Below, in pieces: positions 6,412 to 61,430 of a DNA stretch of 64,000 nt. The position numbers and the translations under genes were made by a program. The notes beneath the pieces are model-generated. The model searched no databases. It was not told the origin of the DNA and saw only the letters and a program-made list of their open reading frames with translations. Origin of the DNA: Rhodoferax aquaticus (GTDB taxonomy: Bacteria > Pseudomonadota > Gammaproteobacteria > Burkholderiales > Burkholderiaceae_C); contig NZ_CP036282.1 in assembly GCF_006974105.1 (NCBI RefSeq), positions 3,658,001 to 3,722,000 on the forward strand, read 5' to 3'. Positions within the stretch are counted from its first letter, which is position 1. Every line of letters begins with the position of its first letter.

Positions 6412-8343
6412 ATGAAGTTTTTCTCCCAAATCTGGTACATCATTCGCGTTGAACTCAGTTTCTTTGCGCGCTACCCTCGGTTAGTGTTAGCCACGGCAGT
6501 GGTCGCCTTGATCCCTGCCATGTATGCAGCGATCTACTTGTCCAGCGTGTGGGACCCTTTAGCCCACACCAACGCTTTGCCTGTGGGGGTGGTCAACCAA
6601 GACCAAGGGGTGGAGTACCGGGGCACGGTGTTCAATATTGGCAAAGAAGTCAGCCAGCGGCTGCAGGCCAGTAGGCGGTTTGGCTTTCAGCTCATCGAAA
6701 GCGAAGCGGCGGCCCGCCATTTGGTGCGCACCGGCGAACTCGCGTTTGCCTTGATCATCCCTCCAGGGTTTAGCTCCAATGCCATCCCCGGAGCTTCGGT
6801 AGGCGCTGGCAAACTCGTGGTCTACACCTCAGAGGGCAACAACTTTGAAAGTGCCGCTATTGCGCGCCACTTTGCGGAGACGCTGGGCCAAGACGTCAAT
6901 GACAGCCTCAATGAGCGGCGTTGGGCCTTGGTACTGAGCAATGCAGCAGGATCGCAGCGCAGTGTGGAAGCCCTGCGTAACGGTGTTGAACAACTGCGCA
7001 CTGGCGCCAACGAATTGCGCGCCGGGACCGTCCAAACAGCCAATGGGGCGCGAACCCTCTCCAATGGTGCTGGACGTCTCAACGACGGAGTAGGCCAACT
7101 CACCAGAGGCGTGAAAGAACTGGGCGCAGGCTTAAAGACGATGGATGCGAAGCGCCCCGCCAACGCCGACCTGAACCGCTTGCGCAATGGGGCGGAAACC
7201 CTGTCCGCAGGACACGTAGAGTTTGGCCAAGGTTTGGCAGAGCTGCAGTCGGGCTCACAAAAGATACGGGACGGCGTTGGCGCATTCCAAACCGAGGCCA
7301 AAGACAGCATTTTTGTGCCCGCCAAAGTCACAGACAACCTCGACAAGCTGGCGGACAGCTTGGGACAGCTGCACACGGGAATCCAGAGTGCATCTGGCGC
7401 GCAGGTCAAGCTAGCGGATGGCGCCAAAGCCGTCAGCACTGGCGTGAACACCCTGACCAGCGGCGTACGCACTTTGGGCGGTGGCATTCGGACCATGGTG
7501 AGCAAACTGCCAGAAGACAGCCAGTTAGACGAACTCAGCAAAGGCGCTGGCGAAGTGGCGAATGGGGTGAGCAGCGTGGCGGAGGCGACCCAAAAGGTGA
7601 ACGCGGGTGCGCAGCGCTTGGCGGCAGGCATTGAGCTTTTGTCTAGTTCCCTACCCAAAGACATTGCCAAGCTCGATGGCAGCGCGCAGGGCTTGGCGGT
7701 GTCGGTGCAACCTGTCATGGACGTGGAGGCAGCGGTACCCAACAGCGGCAGCGGCTTTGCGCCCAATGTGCTGCCTGCGGCCCTGTGGTTGGGCGCAGGA
7801 ATTGCGGCCTTCTTGATTCATGTGCGGGTCTTGCCCCGGCATGCCCAATTCTTCCTCCCCCCCGCGCAAGTCATTGGGAAAATCGCGCTACCCAGCGCCA
7901 TTGTGGTTCTGCAGGCCGTGCTCTTGGCGGCCATGGTGCGCTACTTGCTGCACATACCTTTGGTCCACAGCGGAGCCTTTGTCTTGACCTTGGTGATTTC
8001 AGGGGTGACCTTTTTACTGATCGTCTTTGCCCTGACGCGTGCCTTTGGCGACGCTGGCAAGGGCCTTGCCATGATCTTGCTGGCCGTTCAGATGTCGTCC
8101 TCAGGTGGCATTGTGCCCATTGAGCTCAGCGGCGGCTGGTACAAAGAGATCAGCCCCTGGCTACCGGTGACATGGTCTGTGCGTGCGCTCAAAGCCAGCA
8201 TGTTTGACGCCTATGAGGGCAACTGGCAGCACCCCTTGCTCATGGTTTCTGCTGCAACACTGGCAGCCTCTGTGTTTGCCAGTTGGATTGGCAAATGGCG
8301 CTTTGTGAAGCCCCATGAAATGCGCGCTGCCATTGACGTCTGA
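6412..8343 (+). CDS. YhgE/Pip family membrane protein (ABC-2-type permease fold)
   Basis: A 643-aa inner-membrane protein of the YhgE/Pip family. One transmembrane helix near residues 20-45 precedes a large extracytoplasmic region. From about residue 190 to 440 the protein is full of short repeats of the form L-x2-G-A-x2-L-x2-G (for example VEQLRTGANELRAG), probably a long helical stalk. The C-terminal ~180 residues hold five or so hydrophobic segments of the ABC-2 membrane domain, including VLTLVISGVTFLLIVFAL. Family members include phage-infection protein Pip of lactococci and type VII-associated EsaA-like proteins; the role in proteobacteria is unclear, with export or efflux a common guess. 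The start at 6412 is chosen because the hydrophobic N-terminus begins there; no strong ribosome site is visible. No ATPase partner is adjacent. Confidence 0.8.
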   Translation: MKFFSQIWYIIRVELSFFARYPRLVLATAVVALIPAMYAAIYLSSVWDPLAHTNALPVGVVNQDQGVEYRGTVFNIGKEVSQRLQASRRFGFQLIESEAAARHLVRTGELAFALIIPPGFSSNAIPGASVGAGKLVVYTSEGNNFESAAIARHFAETLGQDVNDSLNERRWALVLSNAAGSQRSVEALRNGVEQLRTGANELRAGTVQTANGARTLSNGAGRLNDGVGQLTRGVKELGAGLKTMDAKRPANADLNRLRNGAETLSAGHVEFGQGLAELQSGSQKIRDGVGAFQTEAKDSIFVPAKVTDNLDKLADSLGQLHTGIQSASGAQVKLADGAKAVSTGVNTLTSGVRTLGGGIRTMVSKLPEDSQLDELSKGAGEVANGVSSVAEATQKVNAGAQRLAAGIELLSSSLPKDIAKLDGSAQGLAVSVQPVMDVEAAVPNSGSGFAPNVLPAALWLGAGIAAFLIHVRVLPRHAQFFLPPAQVIGKIALPSAIVVLQAVLLAAMVRYLLHIPLVHSGAFVLTLVISGVTFLLIVFALTRAFGDAGKGLAMILLAVQMSSSGGIVPIELSGGWYKEISPWLPVTWSVRALKASMFDAYEGNWQHPLLMVSAATLAASVFASWIGKWRFVKPHEMRAAIDV

Positions 8344-38925: not shown

Positions 38926-41802
38926 CTACGAAAGCGGGTCAAGTCTAATCCTACTCGGCCGTTCAATTTCAAGTGTTGGCAACGGCAAGCCGCTGGGGAA
39001 TGCAAAACGTACAGCCGTCAGAAGCGCCTCCAATGTTGCCGCTGCAGTCGCCAGACACTCATCGGTCGCTTTTGTCGTTCGTTTGGGATCTCTGAAAATG
39101 TCTTCCAGCTCTCTAACCACCTTTTCCAGCTGCTTAGCACCTAGGTATCCGGCGTGACTTTTGAGCGTATGTGCCTGATCTGCCGCGCTTGTGACGTCAT
39201 TCGAAGAAACAGCCTTGCTAATAGACTTTATGGCATTCGACTGGGTAGACACAAATGTAGCCAATGTCTTGAGATAGAGGCTTTGGTTATTGCCCATAAG
39301 CATTAGACCAGTCTTGAGGTCCAAGCCCTCGATTTGTTCGGGCATCGCCATATTCGGTAGCGCTGAAGTCTGTGCCATCTCGCTTGGGGATTTCAACTCT
39401 TCACCCAACGCTATCCAACGCAACAGAGTCCTCCAAAGCTGCGTTGGAGCAATCGGCTTAGTCAAGAAGTCATTCATCCCAGCAGCAAGACAACGCTCCT
39501 GGTCGACCTGCATCGCATTGGCCGTCATCGCCACAATGGGCAGGACCGCTGCGCTATAGTTCAGCCGAATCAGGCGAGCAGCAGTAACGCCATCCATGAC
39601 TGGCATCTGCATGTCCATCAAAATCAGATCGTAAGGAAGCTCTTCCAACACACGAGCCTCCACACAATTGACGGCCTTTTGGCCATCTTCGGCAAGATCC
39701 ACCACAAACCCCGCATCGGTAAGCAGTTCGTAGGCTACTTGCTGATTGAGTCTATTGTCTTCGACCAACAGAATCCGAGCACCGCAGATTTGCTGCAACG
39801 CAACTTCGAGTTCACCTGCTAGGTTTTGACTGTCGCTGCGGAATCCCATTGAAGGTAGCGACGCCGGCATCGCTTCGAAACTCACGATTGCTTCCTGGAG
39901 TGCGGCAATGCTCAATGGCCTAGCAAGAACCTGAACCATGCCCAAAGCATGCATAACCTTCGAATCTTCTGCTCGCTGGTCAGGCGCACTGATATATATG
40001 AGAGGTATGTACCGACCGGAAAGTGAACGAATAGCGTCGATATCTCGCAAAACGCCTGGTTGCGACATTGGCCAATCCGTGATCACGAAATCAATGGAAC
40101 TAACCCGGACGTTGGCCGGTTGAATGGCATCCAAAATGCCCTGCCTTGTACTCGCAATTTCTGGAATTAACCCCAAGTCCTCGCACATTGCACATAAATT
40201 CAGAGTCGAGTGCACATCGTCGCTGATGACCAGTACCCCCTTGCCGCGCATGCCCATACCGACCGCAAACGCCCCTCTTTTGTCGGCTGAAGCCTTGCCT
40301 AGCCGTACGGTAAACCAAAACGTTGATCCACATGCCAATGTGCTATTGACGCCTACTTTCCCTCCCATTTCCTCCGCCAAACTCTTGCTGATAGCCAGTC
40401 CCAGACCGGTACCTCCGAACTGTCGAGTAATAGAACTGTCGGCTTGACTGAAGTTATGAAATAGGTTTGCAATCTGCGCCTCGCTCAATCCAATGCCTGT
40501 GTCGCGAACCTCAAAGCGAAGAAAGATATCAAAGTCAGTCTGCTCGATTACATTCAAATTAATGCACACCTGCCCCTGGAAAGTAAACTTTATAGCATTC
40601 CCAGCAAAATTAATAAGTATTTGGCGAAGCCGAAGCGGATCACCCACCATGATTCGAGGGACATCCCGATTGATATCGACAATTAACTTAAGACCCTTTG
40701 CTTCCGCCTTCTGAGCAATCAGGTTTACCACATAGCCGAGCACCTCATTGATCTCAAAAGGCACGTGATCAATACGAAGCTTACCCGCATCGATCTTGGA
40801 CATATCCAGTACATCGTTAATTATTCCGAGCAGATGCTCGCCTGAACCTCTAATTTTCTCCAAATAATCATGAACCCGTGTGGGCATCTCGTTTTTAAGC
40901 GCCAGCGCAGATAACCCAATGATGGCATTCATTGGGGTACGCATTTCATGGCTCATATTGGCCAAAAACAAACCCTTTGCCGCAGCGGATTCGTCAGCCT
41001 TTCTCCGAGCCATTTCCAGATCTTCACGGCTGCGATGCCCCTCCTCCAGCGAATGTGCCAATATATAGTTAATTTCCTTATGGAAACTACGAAATAAAGC
41101 GAATTGCTCGCAAAGTGACTTATAACGCCATGCGATAGACTTTAACTCCTGATCATCAAATGGCAGCTCATCCTTATGTCGTAAACGAGCTATTTTTTCT
41201 TCAATTTCATTGTGCGCCAAGCGCGGGTTCAACTTGAATTTCACACGCACTGTAAACCTATTCAGGAACGGATTACGCCCAAACACCTTAGGCTTCCAGT
41301 CTACTGAAACATAGTCTATGTCGCGAAACATATTACACCCAGCATAAATCACTCCGGTAATAAACTCCGGGCGAAGTGGCATGACCATGTCGTAAAGAGC
41401 ATGTCCACTTACTTTATCCAATGAAAGCAATGAGCACCATCCAACATCATTTAAATCAGCGCCACGCACATAATTGTTATAGTCATTGGGTCCGCGTCTG
41501 CTAATCCAATCAATAAACGAAGTCGCGGATGAATTGTCTTTGCCACTTGTAGGCCATACGTTAAGCAAGTTGGCGCCAGCCTCAAAGAGAATGTTTTCTG
41601 AAGATTCCGGCAAGGCAAAATCAATTCTTCTGATCAACTCCAGAAATTGATCATAGGGATACCAATGCGAAACATCAATTTCACCCACTTCAAGCAGCAT
41701 TTCACCCTTTGGCAAAACAGAAAGATTAAGAAACGCCTGCTTAATTCCAAAAAGAAAGACGCCAGACACTTCGCATTGAGAATATTTTGACAAATCAGAC
41801 AT
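38926..41802 (-). CDS. Hybrid sensor histidine kinase 1 (unknown sensor - HisKA - HATPase - REC - REC - HPt)
   Basis: A 958-aa soluble phosphorelay kinase with no transmembrane segment. Residues ~1-200 are an unrecognised sensory domain ([17 protein letters not shown] and [15 protein letters not shown] recall V4R/DUF2378-type folds, weakly). A helical linker precedes the H-box [14 protein letters not shown] with His near 284; the ATPase has [15 protein letters not shown] and GGTGLGLAI. Receiver 1 (~525-645) keeps its acidic residues but has ARPL where the conserved TKP lysine should be; receiver 2 (~670-790, [13 protein letters not shown], Asp near 728) looks intact. HPt has [13 protein letters not shown] near 878. 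The kinase-to-HPt part is closely similar to hybrid kinase 2 at 46022-49309. It is the last gene of a leftward signalling cluster and its 3' end abuts an IS remnant. Confidence 0.88.
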
Positions 41803-42495
41803 AACTAGGAACCTTGCTTCTTCGAAAGTTGATACCCCACAAAAAATCTCTAATCAAACGACCAAGAGAGCCACAACTCCTAAAAATACAAATGCGATTA
41901 ACTCAAACACCCTAGCGCAGGAACATAATATGGAAAATCATCAAAATTGCAAGGCTCAATTTAAGGCCTCTCAAACAATAAATGCCGAATGCGAAATTAA
42001 AAAATCCAATACGGCGCCATTCCATTTGAGAAAATCAACACGTGATTTTTGCTTTCGACCACTTTTTGCCGAGTTAAACATGAAGCATCTTTGCTACTTG
42101 GACGCGGCCATCCGCCTATGATTTCTTAAGCTAAAATCAAAAAAAGCTTCGAGCAAAGGGTGGAATCCAAATTGCAACCGCCCCTGCCATGGCATGAATT
42201 CATGAAGGCATGCACTGACAAACGCTCAACCAAATAGTACGCAGAGATTACATCAAAAAAATGCACGACAAAATTGAATACATGAAAACATTCAATTCTG
42301 TGCTGGACAACTATGTTTTGTGGAAATACCGATGAATGGAATGCTTCAATATCCAGCGCAAATCATAAACCACCAAATATTTCACTTTTCCCGCAATAAG
42401 GTGCTTGACCTCGTGATTTCACCGCTATCAATTAATCGACTTTTTGACATGTGATTTAACTCGATTGGAAAATAGTTGATTCACATTGCAATCAG
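41803..42495. other. AT-rich gap between hybrid kinase 1 and HD-GYP gene
   Basis: About 690 bases without a convincing gene. A 63-codon frame at 41930-42121 (+) has AGGA seven bases before its ATG but no family resemblance, so it is only a possible small gene. The promoter of hybrid kinase 1 is presumably here. No repeats or hairpins of note were seen. Confidence 0.5.
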
Positions 42496-43584
42496 TCATT
42501 CATCAGAAAAGCGTTCAGCAATCAAGCGAAATTCATTTTTTATTTTCGAAAAAGCAGAAACGATAAGTGGGTCGAAATGGGAGCCAGCTCCCTCAATGAT
42601 AACTTCTGACGCAAGATCATGTTGCATTGGCGGCCTGTACACTCTTCCCGTAGTCAGGGCATCATAAACATCAGCAACCGCCATAATTCGAGCTGAGAGT
42701 GGAATTTCCTCGCCGCGCAATCCGTGCGGATAGCCACTGCCGTCCCACTTCTCTTGATGACTTAGAGCGATTTCTTTGGCGGTAGTGAGAGCCCCCCCCT
42801 CTATTCCCAAAGAAATTTCTGCGAGTTCTATCGCATCTCGTCCAAGCATCGTGTGTGTCTTCATTATGGCGAACTCATCGGAGTCAAGCTCACCAGGTTT
42901 TAATAAAATCTGATGTGGGATTCTAAACATTCCAATATCATGAAGCGCGGCCGACTTTATATATACGTTGATTGTAAAATCATCCAACTGCGCCTTATAG
43001 CTAGAATGTTTACTAAGCTCCAAGGATAGTAGTTTAACGTAATGCTGTGCTCGTAGCATGTGCCCACTGGTTTCATTGGCGCGTGTTTCCACCAATGAAG
43101 CCATAACTTGTAGAGCCACATCTTGAATACTACCTAACTCTTTTACTCGCTTATCGAACTCTTTCTCAAGAGAATTCGCTCTATTGGAAAGCGAATCGAC
43201 ATACATCTTGGCCTCCAAGTGGGTCTTGACTTGGGCCAGAAGCAAATCAGGACCCACAGGTTTTATAAGGAAGTCTGTACCACCAACCTCAAGGCCTCTC
43301 TTTTTGTCTTCATCCGATGATTTGCCAGTGAGGAAAATAATTGGAACATGCCGAAGTTCAGCCTTTTCTCGCAGACGTTTACAAACTTCGTACCCATTTA
43401 CTCCTGGCATTACTACATCCAAAAGAATGAGGTCTGGACAACTGCCTATCTCAACTCGCTTCAGAGCAGCCTCACCACTTGTTGCAATATTTATATCGTA
43501 CTCATCTTTTAGGAATTCGTAAAATATTCTCAATGTCTGAATAGTGTCGTCAACGATTAGAATATTTTTCTTCGCGTGGTTCAT
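42496..43584 (-). CDS. Response regulator with HD-GYP domain (c-di-GMP phosphodiesterase)
   Basis: A 362-aa RpfG-like protein. Residues 1-120 are a receiver (ILIVDDTIQT, phospho-Asp in LILLDVVMPGVNG near 53, FLTGKS and LIKPV). Residues ~165-345 are HD-GYP: SAALHDIGMFRIP carries the HD pair, IMKTHTMLGRDAIE and ALSHQEKWDGSGYPHGLRG the GYP motif, and ARIMAVADVYDALTTGRVYR follows. All expected metal-ligand motifs are present, so c-di-GMP hydrolysis is likely. It is 85 bases downstream of an OmpR-type regulator on the same strand and may be an output of the neighbouring kinases. The ATG follows a T/A-rich leader without a strong ribosome site. Confidence 0.92.
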   Translation of the reverse strand: MNHAKKNILIVDDTIQTLRIFYEFLKDEYDINIATSGEAALKRVEIGSCPDLILLDVVMPGVNGYEVCKRLREKAELRHVPIIFLTGKSSDEDKKRGLEVGGTDFLIKPVGPDLLLAQVKTHLEAKMYVDSLSNRANSLEKEFDKRVKELGSIQDVALQVMASLVETRANETSGHMLRAQHYVKLLSLELSKHSSYKAQLDDFTINVYIKSAALHDIGMFRIPHQILLKPGELDSDEFAIMKTHTMLGRDAIELAEISLGIEGGALTTAKEIALSHQEKWDGSGYPHGLRGEEIPLSARIMAVADVYDALTTGRVYRPPMQHDLASEVIIEGAGSHFDPLIVSAFSKIKNEFRLIAERFSDE

Positions 43585-43668
43585 ATTATTTATATTTAAC
43601 AGACTGAAGAATTCACTTCATCAACCCATAAATTACATCATTACAATAAAGTAGATCGCCCACCAACA

Positions 43669-44400
43669 TCAGCTACTTTTACCGATCCACTCAAGTCGAT
43701 AGCCCTCTCCATATACACTCGAGAGTTGCCATCCATAGGTCGGCGTTAGGTTCAATTTTTTTCGCAAAGTACTTATACATACATCTATCTTGCGAGATTC
43801 AACGGTAGATGAGTGCTGCCAAACGGCCTTTAGAAGCATTGTTCTGGTCAATAATCTTTCTGTGTTTTCGAGTAGAAAAAGTGCAAGCTCCATTTCTCGC
43901 TTGGTTAGAACAATTTTTACGTCATCAAAAAATATGGTCCGACTGCTGAAGTTGACGCACAAAGGTCCCCAACTCTTTTTTTGCCCACGGGTTGCCTGAC
44001 CACTCCGTCGCAAAAGTGCAGTAACTCGCGCAACAAGAATGGCCGCAGAGACCGGTTTTGTAATGTAATCATCTGCACCAATCGCGAGCATTGACAAGAC
44101 ATCATGTTCTTCTGCGCGGGATGTCACGAAAACTATCGGAAGATCACTACTTTTTCGAGATTCACGTATAGCACGCAACACATCTGGCCCCACTACGTCT
44201 GGAACCATCCAATCCAAAACACAAACAGCGTATTGCTGTCGTTGAATCGAGCGAATGCACTCCAAGCCGCTTTTAAACCAGTCAACAGCGAAACCAGCCT
44301 CAGTAAGAGCATTGATCAGAATATTCCCAACGATATCGTCATCTTCTAAAAATGCGACACGCACATGGGGGCTTGATGATGTATCTTTTAATGTATTCAT
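43669..44400 (-). CDS. OmpR-family response regulator
   Basis: A 243-aa two-component transcription factor. The receiver (residues ~12-130) has VAFLEDDDIVG, phospho-Asp in VCVLDWMVPDVVG near 60, VFVTSRAEE and ITKPVSA. The C-terminal winged helix (~150-240) has LTKREMELALFLLENTERLLT and KIDVCISTLRKKLNL, with wing YGEGYRLEW. No cognate kinase is directly adjacent except hybrid kinase 1, two genes downstream. The gene starts just beside the left edge of the IS1380 remnant at 44491, so its original upstream region may be lost. Confidence 0.92.
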   Translation of the reverse strand: MNTLKDTSSSPHVRVAFLEDDDIVGNILINALTEAGFAVDWFKSGLECIRSIQRQQYAVCVLDWMVPDVVGPDVLRAIRESRKSSDLPIVFVTSRAEEHDVLSMLAIGADDYITKPVSAAILVARVTALLRRSGQATRGQKKSWGPLCVNFSSRTIFFDDVKIVLTKREMELALFLLENTERLLTRTMLLKAVWQHSSTVESRKIDVCISTLRKKLNLTPTYGWQLSSVYGEGYRLEWIGKSS

Positions 44401-44490
44401 TTAAAAATTAATTACAAATAAAAGTCCAATGAACTTCAATCAGCATCCATTGCTTTAAGTAAAATACCGTGGAATTGCTGGAGGCGATAA

Positions 44491-45640
44491 CCTGAAACCG
44501 TGACGTGGGAGTTAAAATATGCTGGATTCCTCATTTAAATCAAAGACTGAAATCGCATTTTCATATTCACCCAGAAAGTGAGCGTGAACAGGGGCGACTT
44601 TGTAATCAATAACCTGCCCTAAAACCTCAAGGCATATGCCTGACTGGCTTTCATCGGCAAATACCTTAAGCGCGTCAAATTCAACGCATTGGCCGATGCA
44701 AAGTGCTCCGTGCGTTCTAGCGCTTTCAACAGCGGCATCCTCAAATTCTGTCTGCCCATCTTGTGTTTGGGCAAGAGCGCCTTCCACGCGATAGAGGGCT
44801 TTTGGAACCACACTTTCTTCACGCGTGCATTGAGTCTGGGGGGGCTTATATCCAGCCCGACTCTCGGTCAACGCGTGCACACTAATGCCGCCTCTTGGGT
44901 CCAGCTGGGTACCCTGATGAATGATTTGCTGCTGAACAGTCCTACGAATGGGCAGCCCATAGACTTTGGCTCCATCGAGTGTCGCCGCACCTCGGGTGAT
45001 ATGAATACCTTCGCCATGGACTACCGCGGCACTGTCAAGCAAACGGTGGGACGCACGCATGCAAGCGTGGTGGGCTATTGCCCGCGCCGCGCGGTGTGCC
45101 TTGGCAGCCTGGGCTACTACTTGGAGCTGGCACTGCGCCCGGGCGCGCAGCACCCGGCTTACGGGGGCGAATTTAACTTTGCGCTGACCTTGCCTTTGGC
45201 TGCACGCTGGGTGGATAGCGGGATGGCCGATGGGCCGGCGCACCACAAGGCTACGCATCGTCGCATCAAAAAAGCGATGCAGGAGTTGATGCTCAAGGCT
45301 GCGCGCACGAGCCATCACACTTGCCGCTGGGTCTTGGGCTTGCACAAGAGTGGCCCGGGCTTTGCGATGCGTGATCGCCATCAATGGCAACACGGCGCCG
45401 CGTAGCGGCTGTGTAACTTTCCACATCTTGCGCAGTTTGCAATCAACCTTGCTCCCCAACTGCCCGACAGACATAGCCACGCGCAAGACTTGCCTCAGAC
45501 GCAGCCATTTCCACGCCAGGTAGAGATGTGAGCACACTGAAACTGTAGCGGTGTTGATGCGGGGATACGGGTCCACGGTACTTTGCAAGGGTATTGAGCG
45601 AAACTAGGCTTGGCATTGCCCGGAAAACTGAGATCACATA
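44491..45640 (+). mobile_element. IS1380-family element, decayed copy 1
   Basis: Starts with CCTGAAACCGTGACGTGGGA and runs to ATCACATA at 45640. Both edges and long internal stretches match, in opposite orientation, the shorter copy at 56480-56836, which fixes the boundaries. The interior holds transposase fragments. Length about 1.15 kb is shorter than a full IS1380 element, so it is internally deleted. Confidence 0.75.
44689..45405 (+). pseudogene. IS1380-type transposase fragment
   Basis: Open frame of 238 codons with the IS1380 transposase core partly preserved: DMNTFAMDYRGTVKQTVGRT, then VVGYCPRRAVCLGSLGYYLE, LALRPGAQHPAYGGEFNFAL and the C-terminal RRIKKAMQELMLKAARTSHH. The N-terminal ~70 codons do not fit the family frame, and the true C-terminus is frameshifted, so no active enzyme is expected. 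Confidence 0.8.
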
Positions 45641-46021
45641 TTGGTGCCAACCCCCACCAACCTGTTGTCAACAGCTTGTATTTCTTCGTTTTCAAGCATT
45701 GTTTGCATTGTCTTACACTTGCAATTCAATGCCAAACAAATGTATGTTGTCATTTACATTGTGGGGCGATCAGCGAAATGCCTGAGTGGACTGAGCTCTT
45801 AGATTAGTCAAAACATGCGACCTGCGACTGCGCGTACCTCGTCCTAATTGATATAGGCTTTGGTGGGCTCCGGCCCATTCGTTCGACACCCACCTTAGGG
45901 CATTAACGATTAAGTCCCGAGCTGGGCCGACGAGTCGCCGAATGCACGGCTAAGGCGCCTGGACAAGGCCAACTGAATTTCGATGCTGTCTACTTGTCGT
46001 TTGCAATAAAGCACCGAGTCC
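45641..46021. other. Gap between IS1380 remnant and hybrid kinase 2
   Basis: About 380 bases with no gene that I can support; short frames only, no hairpin with a T-run recognised for the 3' end of kinase 2. Confidence 0.5.
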
Positions 46022-49000
46022 CTATTGTGCGAGCGTTGCTCGAGGAGAGTTCCGCTGCACCGAATCACTCTGCACCTCTTGGGAAAAATGCCGAAGCACT
46101 GACTCTCGCAGCGTGTCCAGCGCCTCATCAGTTGCCTGCAGCGCGTGTTGCATATCTCGAATGTCGCTCTGCGGCTTTGCTAGCAATTCCTCCAGCGCAG
46201 AGGCAGTTCTTCGCAATTCGTTGGCACCAAGATAGGCCGCCTGTCCTTTGAGTGTGTGAGCGAGGCGTTCCGCAGTTGCAAAGTCTCTCTCTTCGATCGT
46301 TCGCTCGATCACCATAGTGGCGTTGCCCTGGGTTTCGAAAAAACTCCAGAGAGTCTTCACGTACAGATCCCAGTTTTCGCCCATAAGCGAGAGCCCAGCC
46401 TGCCAGTCGAGACCATCTATATGCAGGGGCATCTTTGTTGTGAATATTGCCTCGCTCGCAGGCCGCCTTAGCAGCCCTTCTCTGGGGCTGACCCAGCGCA
46501 GAATGGCTTGCCACAATTGGGCTGGAGCAATTGGCTTGGTCAAAAAATCATTCATGCCCGCTGCCATGCACCGCTCTCTGTCTGTCAGCCTAGCATTGGC
46601 TGTCATGGCAATAATAGGCAACTCTTGCGCTGAGTGGTTCAGCCGTATCAGGCGTGAGGCAGTCACACCGTCCATTACCGGCATTTGCATATCCATCAGA
46701 ACGAGGTCATAGGGCAGACGTTCCAGCGCACGCGCCTCTACGCTATTCACGGCCTTTTGGCCGCCATCTGCAATGTCCACAAGAAAGCCCGCATCTGTAA
46801 GGAGCTCAAAGGCCACTTGTTGATTGAGCTCGTTGTCTTCCACCAGCAGGACACGTGCACCATTCACCAGCCGCAAGCCGCTTTCGTGGGGTTGCTGGAG
46901 GCGCAGACTGTTTAGGTCAGTGCCCACGGCTGTCGTTGCGGATGAATGGGCCACAGTTGACATTAAGGCGTCCAACAGCATCGAGGCTTCCACTGGCTTG
47001 GTTATAACGTGCATAACTCCTTGTGCCTCAGCACTTTGAAACAGATCTTGGCGCTTTAGAGGTGTAACCAAGAGAATGAAAGAGCCGGGATCGTTAACTC
47101 GCGCACGAATGGCATGAATGGTCTGCAGCCCATCCATACCGGGCATGGACCAGTCCATAAACACAAAATCAAACGGTACCTGCCGAGTATGGGCGGACAG
47201 GATTACATTTAATGCTTCTGGTCCGCTATGGGCAATTTCTGCTTGCAGACCGAAGTCTTCGAGGAGAGCGCGGAGTATCAAGGCGGCGTCTTCGTTGTCG
47301 TCCACCACCAACGCGCGTTTAGCATGTAAGTCCGCGCTGAATGGGGCTATGCGCTGGCTTGGCCCTTCAACCAGCCCTAGTCGCGCGGAAAACCAGAAGG
47401 TGGAGCCTTTGCCCATGGTGCTAGTCACTCCCACCTCTCCACCCATGCCTTCGGCCAGACTTTTGTTGATCGCCAGGCCCAGCCCGGAGCCGCCAAACTT
47501 GCGGGTAGTGGAGCTGTCTGCCTGACTGAAGCTTAGAAAGAGTTTCGAAATTTGGGCATCGGTAAGACCGAGGCCGGTATCACTCACTTCGAATCGCAGC
47601 AAAATGTCGTCTTCAGTTAGCTCCAGCACACATACGTGCAATCGCACTTGACCTTGCTCTGTAAACTTGACGGAATTGTTGACGTAGTTCACCAATATTT
47701 GGCCCACGCGCAATGGATCCCCCACCAGGGCGTCAGGCACCGCTTTGTCGACACTAATGAGCAGCTCCAGTCCCTTGACCTCTGCCTTTTCTGCGATGAA
47801 ACCCATGACATTGTTCATCACGTCTGCGAGCTTAAATGGAACACGCTCTATCTCCAACTTACCTGCCTCGATTTTGGAGATATCAAGGACATCGTTGATC
47901 ACCCCCAGCAGGTGCTCACCTGAATACTTAATCTTGCTCAAGTAGTCATGCACTCGAGCGGGCATGTCATACTTAAGAGCCAAAACAGACAAGCCGATAA
48001 TGGCATTCATTGGAGTGCGAATCTCATGGCTCATATTGGCTAGAAATTCTGATTTGGCCCGCGTCGCAGCCTCAGCCATATTCCTTAATTGATCAAGCTC
48101 AGCCACGATATCGCAAAGATTTTTTGTCTGGGTGGTCAGCTCTTCGTTTTTCTTCACCAATTCCCGCTGCGTATGATGTAAATCACTAATGATCTGCACG
48201 CGGCTCATCGTGGAGCAAATATGACGGGCAACATAGCTCAGTATTTCAAGGTCTTTGGGGGTATAGACAATGTCATCGCTATATGACTCCACCACGATAG
48301 CACCCATTGCAATACCGTTAAACTCCATGGGGGCACCCATCCACGAAACTTGGTCGCTACCGCCCACAATTTCCTCCACTGCTCCAGAAGCCATTAACTC
48401 GCTTTGCAGCTTCTGATCAATGAGCCAAGGTCGACAGTTGTGCAAAACCAGCCGAAGTAGCCCCTTGTTTAACTTCCAGCGCGTGGGGAGAGTCGTCTCT
48501 TTTTCATAGCGCTTAAAAGCCACAGATACTTCGCTATTGGGCCAGTCATAAAAGACGATATAACAATTCGGTAAGGGCAATAAGCTAGCAAGGATTCGGT
48601 GCAACTCTTCGTAATGCCTATCTGGGTTCTGCGGATCCGGATTGGTAGACGCAATTTCAAATAATGCACGTTGTACTTTCTCGGCGTTGCGCCTCTCCTC
48701 AATCTCTTGCTCCATACGCAGGGTACGACGGGCAACTTCAAGTTCCAGCGCATTGCGGCGCTGTTCGCGCTCTAGCGTTGACGCCACCAGGCTTGCAATC
48801 ATTTTGATCAGCGCAACATCTTCATCGGTGTAGCCGCGCTCTGCTTTGTAACTCTGGGTTACCAGAGCACCCATGATAGTCTGGAAGCTATCGTACAAGG
48901 GAATCCCTATCCAGTGCTCTGCTTGACATTCCTTGACTTCAGCTTTACCCCAAGTACGGTCGTGCTCGTCGATGGCCGCCCGCGTCAGTACGATGGCTTG

Positions 49001-49309
49001 TCCGCTTAGGAGCACATCCACTGTCAGCAGGCCAGTGCTTTTGTCGATGGGAAAGCGCTCTTCGGGGTTGACCTCGCTCGCGTCTATAGAGTCTTTGAAA
49101 TACGGAACTTGAAAATAGGTACGATCCTTATCACATGTAGCTACAAAGAAATTAGACGCGTCCATGATGTTGTGCAGTCTCTCGTGGATCATGCCCATCA
49201 AGAACGTAATGCCACCATTCTTACTTTGAGCATTGTCTATATCCAGCACCAGAGACACAACACTCTCAAGTCTGTGTAGACGCATTTGTTGGATATCGTC
49301 CATTGGCAT
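46022..49309 (-). CDS. Hybrid sensor histidine kinase 2 (GAF - GAF - HisKA - HATPase - REC - REC - HPt)
   Basis: A 1,095-aa cytoplasmic hybrid kinase. Residues ~20-185 and ~220-385 are two GAF-like domains ([39 protein letters not shown]), each followed by a predicted coiled coil ([33 protein letters not shown]). The H-box [14 protein letters not shown] has His near 427; the ATPase has DTGLGL and GGSGLGLAI. Receiver 1 has [11 protein letters not shown] near 720 and an intact TKP; receiver 2 has [13 protein letters not shown] near 871. HPt has [13 protein letters not shown] near 1019. From the H-box on, it is a close paralogue of hybrid kinase 1. It lies between an IS1380 remnant and the fimbrial operon, suggesting a role in surface-related control by inference. 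Confidence 0.92.
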
Positions 49310-56836: not shown

Positions 56837-56950
56837 AGCACGAGCACCAACAACTACCGCACGGCTCCCGATGGCGAATTGTCGGTCGTTAATTGCAATT
56901 CGCCATTTTGAAATATTACTCAAGGCCTCTATCCGTTTGGAGAACTCATT

Positions 56951-57667
56951 ATGAACAATTTTAATCTGGGTATTAAAGGATTGAGTGAAGGTGAGACTAA
57001 TTTTATTCGAGATTTACTCAGTTCCATGACCATTGATCCCGATTTTAAATGGATTTACTCGTCTAAAGAGCCGTTTGATGCATATATTGCAGATGCGGAA
57101 ACATATTCGCATTTGGAGATTCCATATGTTTCAGATATTGAAATCGTACTGGCGGGCGCGCCTTCTAATAAACTGCGCTTGAGTCGCCCCATAGATGCGC
57201 CTAGTTTAAAGGCTTGCCTAATTGTGCTCCAAAGGGTTATCTCTTCCCAGCAATACACGTTAGATTTGGTCCAGCCAAAATTATTCACTTCAGAAACAAA
57301 TAATCAGCAAGTATCAGCTGGGCTAAAAGGAATCGAAAGTTTAGAGAGTATTGCTGAAGAAAAATACCAACTCATTCGTTGGCCTCACCAGGTCGCGATC
57401 CGTGGAAGCAAGGACCGTGTGCGTTTATCTAATTTTTTGATTGGCAGAGCGTGGTCTATCCGAGAGCTAGCTATTTCTTCCGGAGTTGCACTGGAGGAAT
57501 GCATATCTTTTATTGCAATTTTAAAGTCTCTTCGATTGGTCTTGATATCCTCCAGCGAGGTACCTGATAAGGCTAAGGTAGTCGAATTTCTACCAAGTAA
57601 GAAAAAGGCTGTTAGCCATGCTAATCGTGGTTTTATTTCCTCACTGCGACGGAAGCTGGGCCTCTGA
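56951..57667 (+). CDS. Hypothetical protein with pseudo-receiver-like N-terminus and winged-helix-like C-terminus
   Basis: A 238-aa cytoplasmic protein that I do not recognise by family. The first ~115 residues have the rhythm of a receiver fold: FKWIYSSKEPFDAYIADAET near 35-55, IEIVLAGAP near 70, and LRLSRPIDAPSLKACLIVLQ near 82-100, where a receiver would have its K-P turn. The phosphorylation Lys is absent, so it would be a pseudo-receiver. Residues ~155-205 (VRLSNFLIGRAWSIRELAIS, GVALEECISFIAILKSLRL) look like a winged helix. It is the first gene of a four-gene unit with a GTPase and two Roadblock proteins, 14 bases before the GTPase gene, so a role as its output or localisation factor is an inference. 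Confidence 0.7.
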   Translation: MNNFNLGIKGLSEGETNFIRDLLSSMTIDPDFKWIYSSKEPFDAYIADAETYSHLEIPYVSDIEIVLAGAPSNKLRLSRPIDAPSLKACLIVLQRVISSQQYTLDLVQPKLFTSETNNQQVSAGLKGIESLESIAEEKYQLIRWPHQVAIRGSKDRVRLSNFLIGRAWSIRELAISSGVALEECISFIAILKSLRLVLISSSEVPDKAKVVEFLPSKKKAVSHANRGFISSLRRKLGL

Positions 57668-57681
57668 AACTCACTAATCCT

Positions 57682-58209
57682 ATGAATGAATACAAAATAC
57701 TAATAAGCGGTACCACTGGTTCGGGGAAAACCACTGCAATAGGTGTGGTGAGTGATTCTCTGCCCATCGTGACGGATGTAAAAAATACAGATCCTACAGT
57801 TTCTAAGCTGCTGACCACAGTAGGACTTGATTTCGGCTTGGTTGAACTGGAGAGTGGTAACCGTTTGAGGTTGTTTGGGACGCCAGGCCAGGATCGGTTT
57901 GACTTTCTTTGGAAAATTCTCGCGAAAAATGCGCTGGGTCTCATTATCTTGATTGATAACTCCCGCCCTAAGCCATTGGAAGATCTTGAAAAGTACCTCA
58001 ATGGCTTTAGTGAGTTCCTCGGAAACACACCCTGCGTCATTGGTGTAGGGCGTTTGCCAGAGTGCCCAGATCCGGATGTTGACGCGTATGCAGACTTCTT
58101 GTTTAACCGGCAATGCTTGGTGCCCGTTGTTCCCGTTGACGTGAGACAGCGTGACGATGTCCTCATGCTCATTGACATCTTGTTAACGCAAATTGAAGCT
58201 GATCTTTGA
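57682..58209 (+). CDS. Small Ras-like GTPase with atypical G4 motif
   Basis: A 175-aa P-loop GTPase of the MglA/Arf-like bacterial type. Walker A (G1) is ISGTTGSGKTTAIG at residues 8-21, the G2-like DPTVSKLLTTVGLDFG lies near 38-52, and G3 is FGTPGQDRFDFLW near 66-78 with Gln after PG. The G4 guanine-specificity motif NKxD is not present; the equivalent strand reads CVIGVGRLPECPDPD near 113-127. Loss of NKxD suggests altered or relaxed base specificity, or another mode of base binding. The partner Roadblock genes follow, as in MglA-MglB, where a Roadblock protein acts as GTPase-activating protein. Confidence 0.85.
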   Translation: MNEYKILISGTTGSGKTTAIGVVSDSLPIVTDVKNTDPTVSKLLTTVGLDFGLVELESGNRLRLFGTPGQDRFDFLWKILAKNALGLIILIDNSRPKPLEDLEKYLNGFSEFLGNTPCVIGVGRLPECPDPDVDAYADFLFNRQCLVPVVPVDVRQRDDVLMLIDILLTQIEADL

Positions 58210-58253
58210 CCGTTTGATTCAGCACACCCCACCGGCTATTTGACAACACATAT

Positions 58254-58652
58254 ATGAAAAATAATACAGCTATAGACAATATTCGCAATTTTTGCGAGCA
58301 AGAGGCACAAAAAATTCTCGCCGAGATTACCGGAACGCTGGGAGTTGTAGTTTCTACGGTCGATGGTTTTGAAGTCGCCTATGCCCACCACGGAGATCTT
58401 GTCCCCGAAAGAATTGCAGCGATGGCCAGTTCAATCTCTGCCATTGGTTCGGTGGTCGCAAGAGAATCTTTTTTGGAAGATCCATCAGATATAACGATCT
58501 ACTCTGGAAATGGGTTTGTCCAGGTATTTTTGGTCAATCAATCGGATGCAAACTTATTGATAGTGAATATTGTTTCAGACTCAACGGCAATAATGGCTCA
58601 AGTAAATCACCGTGGAAAGCGATTTGCCAAAGCCTTGAGGGAGCTGCGCTAA
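58254..58652 (+). CDS. Roadblock/LC7 domain protein 1
   Basis: A 132-aa cytoplasmic Roadblock/LC7 protein. The fold pattern is clear: an amphipathic N-terminal helix (FCEQEAQKILAEITG), GVVVSTVDGFEVAYAHHGDL, the central helix RIAAMASSISAIGSVVARE and the last strands GFVQVFLVN and LLIVNIV. Bacterial Roadblock dimers bind small GTPases and can act as GAPs or as polarity factors. It lies 44 bases after the GTPase gene and is followed by a second Roadblock-like gene. Confidence 0.88.
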   Translation: MKNNTAIDNIRNFCEQEAQKILAEITGTLGVVVSTVDGFEVAYAHHGDLVPERIAAMASSISAIGSVVARESFLEDPSDITIYSGNGFVQVFLVNQSDANLLIVNIVSDSTAIMAQVNHRGKRFAKALRELR

Positions 58653-58809
58653 GAAATGTATTGCGGTGCAGGCGGCTGGCCTTAAAAACTGCTAGAAAAC
58701 CAAGCGCTATTCTTAAGCAAATTAATTTAAAAATCTTGTGCGGGCTGCGGGGCACTCGTCAAAATAAAAAATCCGCAGCGAATTAACTAAATTGATAAGG
58801 AACAACACT

Positions 58810-59169
58810 ATGTCTACGATTAAACAAACACTTGACGAACTCATGACAGCTGATGGTGCCGTTTGCACTGCCATTGTCGACTCAACCAGCGGCATGATCT
58901 TGGGTAGCGCTGGCTCTGGTGTGGATATCGAGGTGGCTGCGGCGGGAAATACCGAAGTCTTTCGCTCCAAAATGAAGACTATGCGCGCATTGGGTCTGAA
59001 TGACACAATTGATGACATGCTAATTACCTTAGGAAAGCAATATCACATTATTCGACCATCTGCTTCCAAGGAAGGTGTTTTCATTTATTTTGTTTTGGAT
59101 AAAAGCAAGTCAAATTTGGCAATGGCTAGGCGCAAAGTGCAGGATGCTGATAAGGGTTTAGACTTTTAA
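58810..59169 (+). CDS. Roadblock/LC7-like protein 2
   Basis: A 119-aa protein of the same fold group. LDELMTADGAVCTAIVDSTS, GMILGSAGSG, a central helix VAAAGNTEVFRSKMKTMRAL, and the last strands YHIIRPSASKEGVFIYFVLD and NLAMARRKV are typical of short Roadblock-like proteins linked to two-component or GTPase genes in betaproteobacteria. The ATG at 58810 has AAGGA 9 bases upstream. It is separated from Roadblock 1 by 157 bases, so a separate promoter is possible, and is followed by a strong terminator that ends the module. Confidence 0.82.
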   Translation: MSTIKQTLDELMTADGAVCTAIVDSTSGMILGSAGSGVDIEVAAAGNTEVFRSKMKTMRALGLNDTIDDMLITLGKQYHIIRPSASKEGVFIYFVLDKSKSNLAMARRKVQDADKGLDF

Positions 59170-59195
59170 AGTTCAGCCAAGCGCCCAAGCAGATA

Positions 59196-59220
59196 GGCCC
59201 GTTCACAAACGGGCCTTTTT
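59196..59220 (+). terminator. Terminator of the GTPase/Roadblock module
   Basis: Perfect stem GGCCCGTT / AACGGGCC with a 4-base loop, then five T residues, 27 bases past the last Roadblock gene. Confidence 0.93.
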
Positions 59221-59394
59221 CATGGCGGAATAGTCGGCCGAGCGAAACCCTAGAAGCAAGCCCGCGTAGTCGCTTACTTGCGAGGGTTTGTATCCGATGA
59301 TCTGCACCTGAGGGCCTAAAGCGCTAAGCGCGCGGTCAACCCATCTTTCGCCTGAGGGCAATAGTTGGGAGCATGGTGTCCACTTCAACAAGGT

Positions 59395-59922
59395 GGACAC
59401 GTGCACACTACATACATTCAATTGCCCACTGCTGGTCGGCCTCAGGGCCGTTACAGCGACGAATTCAAACGCCAGATCATGGCTGCCTGCAAGCAGCTCG
59501 GAGTGCCCACTGAGGCTGTAGCGCTGGCAAACGGCTTGGACGCTAACGTGCTGCGTCGCTGGATTTCTGAATCCCAAACGCGCTTGCTCAAGTCTGATAC
59601 GGCGAAGCAGACCATGGCGCTGGCTCTACAGACACAAACCCAGTTCATCGCCTTGGAGATTCAGTCTGGTGATGCAGCCTCAGCCAATGTACAGATTGAA
59701 CTGCAGCGCTCAGCTACCACGGTGCGCGTCCAATGGCAGCTCGTTTGTGCTGCTGAGTGCGCCGCCTGGCTGGCGGCACGCAGACTGCATCAAGGTCGGT
59801 TTGTCTGGCCACCCATTTGTGGGGTAGATCAATTTAGCTTGAGTCACCCCCAACTGGATCACTTGGTATTGAGTTCGGCGGGGCAACGCATGGGGGATGG
59901 CGGCACCATCACCATGGTGTGA
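59395..59922 (+). pseudogene. IS66 tnpA-tnpB deletion fusion
   Basis: The frame begins in IS66 TnpA (GRYSDEFKRQIMAACKQLGV, ANGLDANVLRRWISESQ) through its end (IELQRSATTVRVQWQ, AECAAWL) and then jumps into the C-terminus of TnpB (ARRLHQGRFVWPPICGVDQF, LSHPQLDHLVL). The first ~70 residues of TnpB are missing, so the junction is an internal deletion. Confidence 0.82.
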
Positions 59923-59999
59923 ATCCTGCAAAAAGCATAGCAACAGCGTCGATGTTGGCATGCACCAATGGTGCTTTGTGGTGGGCAGTGACACACCGC

Positions 60000-61430
60000 G
60001 CTTCATGGTGATTAGCCCGCAACAATTGCCCCACATGGGCGCAGACGAACTGCGCGACGTGGTGCAGTCCCTGTTCAAGACGCCTAGCTTCAAACAAGCC
60101 ACCATCTACAAGCTCACGCACGAAATTGCCATCCTCAAGCGGCTGAAGTTTGCCGCCCAATCTGAGCGCTTCAGCGCCGAGCAAGGTTGTTTGCTGGAAG
60201 ACACCCTGGATGAGGATCTGCAAGCGGACAACGATGAGATCGAGCAACTCAGCTCCAGTGATGCTCTACCCCGAAGACCAAGCAGCAACCCAAAAGCCAG
60301 GCCCTACCCGCGAATCCGCCCTCGCCAACATCCGCCATGCGCCTGACGCCACCACATGCAACACGCCCGGTTGCGGCTTCCAGTTAAAACGCATCGGTGA
60401 AGACGTGGCTGAGAAACTGGACGACGTGCCTGGTGTGTTCAGCGTCATACCCGAGGCAAGTGGGCTTGCGCCCAATGCAAGACTCTGATTCAGGCATCTG
60501 TGGATGCACACGTCATCAACAAAAGTTTCCCCACTGCGGGTCTACTGGGCTAGGTGTGTTGGCCGCCAAGTTTGGGTATCGGTTGCCGCGGTACCGCCCA
60601 GAAGCCCTCTTTGGGCGTGCCGGTTTGGCCACCTCCCGCTCCACATGGGTGCCTGGTGGGTAGTTGCAGGGGTACTGTTGCAGCTTTAGGTGGATGTACT
60701 TAAGGCCTAGATCTTGAGCCACAGCGGGGCGCATGCTGAGGAAACGCCACTTCAAATGCCGAAGCCCGGAGCTGGCAAGACCCACCGAGCGTAGTTGTGG
60801 GCCTTTGCCAAAGGGGCGTTTGAAGATACCAAGGCTGTTGTCTACGATTTTTGTAACTGCCGGGGAGGGGAGAATGCAAAGTTGTTTCTGGGCGGCTGGA
60901 GAGGCGGTCTCGTGGGTTGTGACTTCAGTGGCTGCAAGCAGTTGATCACCCAAGGTGTCACGGAGGTAGGCTGTCTGGCCCACAGTGGGCGCGAGTTCTT
61001 TGATTTGTATGCCAGCAACTAAAGCCAGATTACCCACAGTGCGCTGAAGCCGATCGCAAGGATTTACGACATTGAGCGGGAGATCAACGAACTTCTGATA
61101 GATGAGCGACAACGCATTCGCTAGGAACGATCAAAACCACTGCTGGATGCCTTGCATCAGTGCATGACTCTGAAACGTCAAAAAGTTACGAATGGTTTGG
61201 CCAGGGGCAAAGCACTGAATTACAGCCTGCGCCGCTGGGGGGCTATGACGGGGGTTATGACTGATAGGCAACTCCCGGTAGCGAACAACCCTATTGAGAA
61301 TCAGATTCGTCCGATACCCATTGGCAGAAGTAATTGGTTGTTCGCTGGCTCCCTTCGTGCGGGAAAGCGTGCTGTACGTTTGGTGCAGGAGCATCGTCAA
61401 GCCTATGCGTCACTTTGGGCTTGCGTGTAA
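60000..61430 (+). pseudogene. IS66 tnpC (DDE transposase) remnant
   Basis: Pieces in several frames follow the normal order of IS66 TnpC: the leucine-rich N-terminus (TIYKLTHEIAILKRLKFAAQ, QGCLLEDTLDEDLQADNDE; 60086-60240), the CxxC region with LKRIGEDVAEKLD (60390-60425), FGRAGLATSRST (about 60620), the catalytic DFCNCRGGENAKLFLGGWR and VTEVGCLAHSGREFFDLYAS (60846-61020) and the C-terminus GKALNYSLRRW, NNPIENQIRPIPIGRSNWLF (61210-61350). Frameshifts and stops rule out a working enzyme. Confidence 0.82.

Follow-up and report, generated by a model that had tools for sequence, protein, structure and literature searches.

A Group 3 MglA small-GTPase operon of Rhodoferax aquaticus with a candidate membrane adaptor and a second genomic copy

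The 64,000-nucleotide stretch of Rhodoferax aquaticus DNA analysed here (hereafter the window; G000:C1:3658001-3722000, in a host genome of 4.74 Mb on one contig) carries a plus-strand operon of four genes, designated A, G, R1 and R2, with a hairpin terminator at its end. Gene order, motifs and host give good support to its identification as a Group 3 MglA small-GTPase module. The best explanation of how it works, to which we assign a probability of about 0.5, is that protein A acts as a membrane adaptor for one shared GTPase core, with an output in type IV pili or surface behaviour. The family has been known since 2014, and what is added here is a second copy with an apparently converted core, a reading of the tail and winged helix of A, and a third Roadblock-like gene (Rx) in relatives.

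Assignment to Group 3 and distribution

The four genes are real, and the coordinates given for them in the initial annotation of this DNA are correct. Gene A (56951..57667) encodes a 238-amino-acid (aa) protein with a degenerate receiver, a winged helix and a C-terminal amphipathic tail, and is followed on the plus strand by G (57682..58209; Ras-like small GTPase of the MglA family, 175 aa), R1 (58254..58652; MglB-type Roadblock protein, 132 aa), R2 (58810..59169; second Roadblock protein, 119 aa) and an intrinsic-terminator-like hairpin (59195..59216). Gene calls and motifs confirm the row of pseudo-receiver/winged-helix protein, small GTPase, two Roadblock proteins and terminator that had been annotated, but not the accompanying claim that no described system has exactly this composition. 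As far as the available text of PMC4316618 goes, Wuichet and Sogaard-Andersen described in 2014 the Group 3 MglA systems, in which a protein with a receiver-like N-terminus and a winged-helix C-terminus, joined by a variable linker, is accompanied by an MglA homologue and one or two MglB proteins. The same source gives as their marks GTPGQ at G3, Thr at G2, a deviating G4 often without Lys and an Arg in G5 (DAR), describes them as almost confined to beta/gamma-Proteobacteria, and reports them from Neisseria, Stenotrophomonas and Xanthomonas.

The window GTPase agrees with this description in its G2, G3, G4 and G5 motifs, as the operon does in its linked receiver/winged-helix protein, its two Roadblock proteins and its beta/gamma-proteobacterial host. 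It has the P-loop GTTGSGKTT, Thr-Thr at G2, GTPGQ at G3 (within FGTPGQDRF), no NKxD at G4 and DVR at G5, and its profile retrieves Rab and Ras structures. Thr45-Thr46, in place of the intrinsic Arg finger, is invariant in eight aligned sequences, and the TT motif occurs in all 62 G sequences (window included), as do G[TAS]PGQ (56 of them with GTPGQ) and D-x-R at G5 (DAR in 26, DVR in 10, the window having the Arg with a middle letter other than that of DAR). The G4 stretch of the window reads IGVGRLPE and deviates from [NT]KxD, while a canonical-looking motif stands there in 27/62 sequences. For MglB proteins of Groups 2-5 the Asp-Gly pair is given as a feature in the same available text; R1 has it (D37-G38, invariant in seven aligned sequences), whereas R2 has Ser-Gly at the aligned place, a point against the explanation given above.

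R1 scores slightly under the Robl_LC7 cut-off of Pfam and an R1 orthologue scores over it. By fold, R2 belongs to the Roadblock proteins (46 of the 50 best structure matches listed, from a model that is itself of low confidence); a Roadblock-type name stands on 7 of 120 R2 homologues among the matches listed, and at least 7997 of 7999 scored candidates pass E 0.001. R2 is also the most conserved of the four proteins between the window and the relatives L014-L016.

G was searched in overlapping sets of 101 genomes, 399 genomes of the order and 370 of the class. A single-sequence search found it in 8/101 genomes (own included), and the profile in 11/101 (three weak, E above 1e-5), 53/399 (44 at E below 1e-15) and 87/370 (76 at E below 1e-10). 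In 61 loci, which are the best-scoring ones from these searches rather than all matches and leave out the host's own second copy, A lies on the same strand as G in 59 (misses L012 and L031) and upstream of it in 55, and a Roadblock gene follows G within 1.5 kb in 54 (misses L012, L030, L031, L055, L078, L081 and L082). The linkage of the module genes is hence conserved. The GTPase genes of L012 and L031 (genomes G080 and G202) are Group-3-like and possible orphans, no A or Roadblock gene having been detected within 1.5 kb of them; in L078 (1498-3510) one A gene is flanked by two GTPase genes, downstream of one and upstream of the other.

Two layouts occur. In the first, A is long (median 390 aa) and precedes G, which is followed by protein B (211 aa; in 49/62 loci) and a Roadblock protein of 120 aa. 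In the second, that of the window, A is short (229-322 aa), and G is followed by R1 and R2 (R2 in 7/61 loci), in some cases with Rx between the two. Compared with the long-form Group 3 loci, the window A lacks the middle region of long A, and R1 and R2 directly follow G in place of B plus a Roadblock gene. R2 is found at E below 1e-60 in exactly six of the 101 genomes (own included), all with the second layout, and in diverged form in one further genome and one further place. Rx (121-124 aa) stands between R1 and R2 in 4/61 loci (L014 8374-8739, L015 10191-10556, L016 10560-10925, and L054), and its L014 and L015 copies had no Pfam match when scanned. The corresponding gap of the window (58653..58809, plus strand) holds no significant remnant of Rx, which was not found in the host genome either. 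Within the genus, to which the relative G053 belongs by kinship, the distribution is patchy, with the module in four genomes and at least 20 listed without it, several of them incomplete. The A profile gave 12 matches at E up to 1e-3 over 299 Pseudomonadota genomes, seven of them convincing and all in the host's own class; the other five (one outside the class), which have E above 1e-4 and match on the receiver side, probably represent ordinary receivers. This search missed G067, which is known to hold A, and is a weak test of the range outside the class.

The kinship with MglA-MglB and with the actinobacterial conservons proposed in the initial annotation stands, motifs and parts being in agreement, and eukaryotic Ragulator-Rag-GATOR1 is also counted among the closest known systems. 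The Group 1 system of Myxococcus (MglA-MglB-RomR) shares a small GTPase, Roadblock proteins and a receiver-containing partner, and has pili under its control. According to the available text of PMC4316618, TVPGQ and an intrinsic Arg at G2 mark Group 1, whose RomR is not encoded near mglA, whereas A lies beside G in the window; with GTPGQ at G3 and Thr at G2 the window does not match Group 1 MglA-MglB.

The conservons (AGPS; CvnA-D, Mfp) resemble the module in a GTPGQ-type MglA GTPase (Group 2), a Roadblock partner and a small partner gene (CvnC). They differ in their CvnA histidine kinase, for which no open reading frame (ORF) exists between 56600 and 59500, and in their DUF742 protein, while A has a receiver domain and a tail. 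From this likeness it could be argued that A is mainly a guanine-nucleotide exchange factor (GEF), a counterpart of CvnC/MfpC with no essential membrane role. MfpC is a likely GEF for MfpB in the available part of PMC13343842, and in L023 the gene immediately before the GTPase encodes a DUF742 protein. However, the A profile aligned with that single L023 protein only at an hhalign probability of 3 (P 0.015, 48 columns), and none of 28 A proteins scanned (window A and 27 relatives) matched DUF742 in Pfam; we consider this exchange-factor role rather unlikely. The L023 locus itself (6423-7608, DUF742 or CvnC-like gene before a conservon-type GTPase, contig labelled Candidatus Melainabacteria) is either a conservon outside Actinomycetota or a misbinned contig.

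Domains and tail of protein A

Protein A had no database match of its own. Its N-terminal domain (residues 1-106; 56951..57268) is homologous to receivers as judged by profile comparison: aligned pairwise with 30 receivers of the same genome, the A-family domain gave an hhalign probability of 97.3 (E 2.3e-11), while three other families used as controls gave 0.1 to 0.4. The short A forms alone reached 35.8 against receivers and 97.7 against the long forms. Of the residues of a phosphorylatable receiver (strand-1 acidic pair, strand-3 Asp, strand-5 Lys), the window protein keeps only the strand-3 Asp (IADAE); because the acidic pair is missing and the Lys is replaced by Arg (LSRPI), it is a pseudo-receiver. 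The AlphaFold model of A places a winged helix at about 132-202, disorder at 203-223 and a helix at 226-235.

The winged helix (residues 132-202; 57344..57556, plus strand) and the tail (residues 225-238; 57623..57664, plus strand) bear on whether Group 3 modules act on DNA or at membranes. A role in transcription was suggested in the available text of PMC4316618, so that A would be a DNA-binding protein similar to response regulators, with a winged helix placed on promoters under control of the GTPase. Among 88 A sequences, the recognition helix has no Lys or Arg in 58, no more than one in 83 (a single Lys in the window protein) and a mean charge of -0.8, and the basic tail suggests membranes. 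The phospho-receiver residues are degraded in the window protein, although the long forms keep the strand-3 Asp and Lys-Pro. Taken together, these features make the transcriptional role unlikely.

For the tail, 50 non-redundant sequences out of the 88 were compared over the last 20 residues. Nearly all the A proteins examined appear to end in a basic amphipathic helix, which in the window is a candidate membrane-targeting tail: the mean charge is +4.1 in A, -2.1 in G and +1.5 in R1, and the mean hydrophobic moment of A tails is 0.68 against 0.54 in shuffles. A hydrophobic-basic pattern, derived from the same data as were scored with it, is present in 45/50 A tails (shuffled mean 1.8), 13/26 G tails and 1/13 R1 tails. 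The word 'amphipathic' is absent from the main text of PMC4316618, the available part of which does not mention such a tail, and from that of the Snodgrassella paper PMC11112851. A literature search for MglA/Roadblock systems with an amphipathic or winged helix yielded, judged by the listing, only PMC4316618 as concerned with such systems. The tail and the non-basic recognition helix turn the question of transcription or membrane into a simple localisation test.

Several observations weigh against the membrane-adaptor reading of A. Only 11/50 A tails beat their own shuffles at p<0.05, and the window's close kin are not among them; R1 tails are as amphipathic as A tails, so amphipathicity alone is unspecific. 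The whole winged-helix domain has a mean net charge of +3.5, compatible with DNA as well as phospholipid, and the 88 A sequences are not independent. In addition, the structural model of A is of modest confidence, and no receivers were among the best 50 matches listed (VIA).

A second copy with a nearly identical core

The block 56840-59220 matches a second place in the same genome (L013, minus strand) at 90.8%, and at E 0.001 neither A nor G was detected a third time in the genome. Divergence between the copies is very uneven. A has 0.79 synonymous (dS) and 0.19 non-synonymous (dN) differences per site, against dS 0.008 and dN 0 in G, dS 0.068 and dN 0.017 in R1, and dS 0.038 and dN 0 in R2; the synonymous differences in A versus the rest of the block give a Fisher p of 3.5e-32. 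The 111 nucleotides upstream of A (56840-56950) contain 31 differences, and the last difference in A is at 57613. Because such bimodal divergence is impossible from a single duplication, we infer an old duplication of the block followed by gene conversion of the G-R1-R2 core, with a putative tract (57614..59220, plus strand) that is nearly identical in the two copies. Two copies with such a core distinguish the window from the Group 3 systems described in the available text of PMC4316618.

At L013 an intact M60/IMPa-type peptidase gene (by Pfam; the ORF ends at L013 9455) lies just upstream of the module, whereas the window block keeps only the last 72 bases of that gene (56840..56911, plus strand), which came along with the duplicated block; the window copy is therefore probably the derived one. 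The surroundings of the second copy (L013 9455-17876, minus strand) comprise a pair of similar genes (935 and 936 aa) that enclose an ORF of 653 aa, the 935-aa gene being the M60/IMPa-type metalloprotease by Pfam.

It may be asked whether the window copy has no separate role and, as a duplicate, owes its intactness to recent gene conversion alone. The peptidase remnant upstream, the broken IS66-family pieces downstream and the recently re-copied core are in line with this. Nevertheless, A lies outside the converted tract and is intact, and its dN/dS between the copies of about 0.24 at dS 0.79 indicates purifying selection in at least one copy, the ratio being silent on which; we hold a copy with no separate role to be improbable. 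The two copies form a natural pair, an identical GTPase with different adaptors, so that what the adaptor does can be told apart from what the switch does.

Proposed role and genomic neighbourhood

In the membrane-adaptor reading favoured above, G would be the nucleotide switch and R1, which keeps the Asp-Gly pair, probably its GTPase-activating protein (GAP), while R2, and Rx in relatives, would be further Roadblock subunits that probably scaffold or tune the switch, by analogy with MglB and MfpD. The assignment of GAP and GEF functions follows that of MfpD and MfpC as presented in the available part of PMC13343842. A would be a peripheral membrane adaptor whose degenerate receiver takes protein input without phosphorylation, whose winged helix binds protein and not DNA, and whose basic amphipathic tail anchors the complex to the inner membrane; GTP-bound G would thereby be made or kept at a chosen site. 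After conversion, one common GTPase core would receive input from two different adaptors.

The output is most likely type IV pilus assembly or polarity and surface behaviour, by analogy with Snodgrassella, and the host genome has three PilT-family ATPase genes above cut-off. According to the available text of PMC11112851, Snodgrassella communis has an mgl locus in which a Group 3 mglA is coupled to two mglB genes, and a mutated orphan mglB of group 3 altered both soft-agar flares and competition in the bee gut. The third MglB there has 121 aa, the same length as Rx of the window's relatives, a likeness by length; its gene is a distant orphan in Snodgrassella, whereas Rx lies inside the operon in Rhodoferax relatives. 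Two points weigh against this output: the connection with pili goes back to a single study in a different genus, based on an allele of an orphan mglB and the re-reading of a transposon-sequencing set, and our literature search found no experiment on this operon. Although Group 3 is present here in many Burkholderiales, the Snodgrassella work, in its available part, is the sole study found that touches its function.

A tentative and more doubtful extension of the membrane-adaptor reading is that Group 3 modules in general are membrane-bound GTPase platforms rather than transcriptional regulators, with A as tail anchor, pseudo-receiver input and protein-binding winged helix, a functional parallel of a Ragulator/GATOR-type scaffold. 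Hosts might then diversify them by block duplication, divergence of A and homogenisation of the core through gene conversion, with several inputs converging on a single switch.

The initial annotation had placed the module on an island with fimbriae and c-di-GMP (cyclic di-GMP) enzymes. A chaperone-usher fimbrial operon does adjoin the module in the window, and the module might serve it, but this adjacency is seen in the window only and the fimbrial operon is on the opposite strand. PapD, usher and FimA queries found nothing in the ten flank loci L013-L022, second copy included (nine distinct places, L014 and L022 being on the same contig; the fimbrial search did not extend to the other loci, with 1.5-kb flanks), and the second copy adjoins the peptidase gene instead. 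A service to these fimbriae is thus very improbable, and the fimbrial neighbour looks incidental. As to c-di-GMP, two relatives (L015 and L016) have a 999-aa protein directly upstream of the module (GAF-PAS-GGDEF-EAL by Pfam in L015), but no such neighbour was seen beside the module in the other flank loci read, and the possible link is not general.

Just to the right of the module block, at 59365-61430 of the window, lie the broken IS66-family pieces (TnpB_IS66/HTH_Tnp_1, LZ_Tnp_IS66, zf-IS66 and DDE_Tnp_IS66). Beyond the fimbrial operon, at 38926-49309 on the minus strand, are large hybrid histidine kinases, response regulators and a receiver-HD protein (domain names assigned by eye), with the receivers located at G000:C1:3697430-3705311. 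Moreover, the long-form module in L017 (7494-13445) is flanked by a TPR protein, an ODP-family protein of metallo-beta-lactamase fold and a phosphonate-binding-type protein.
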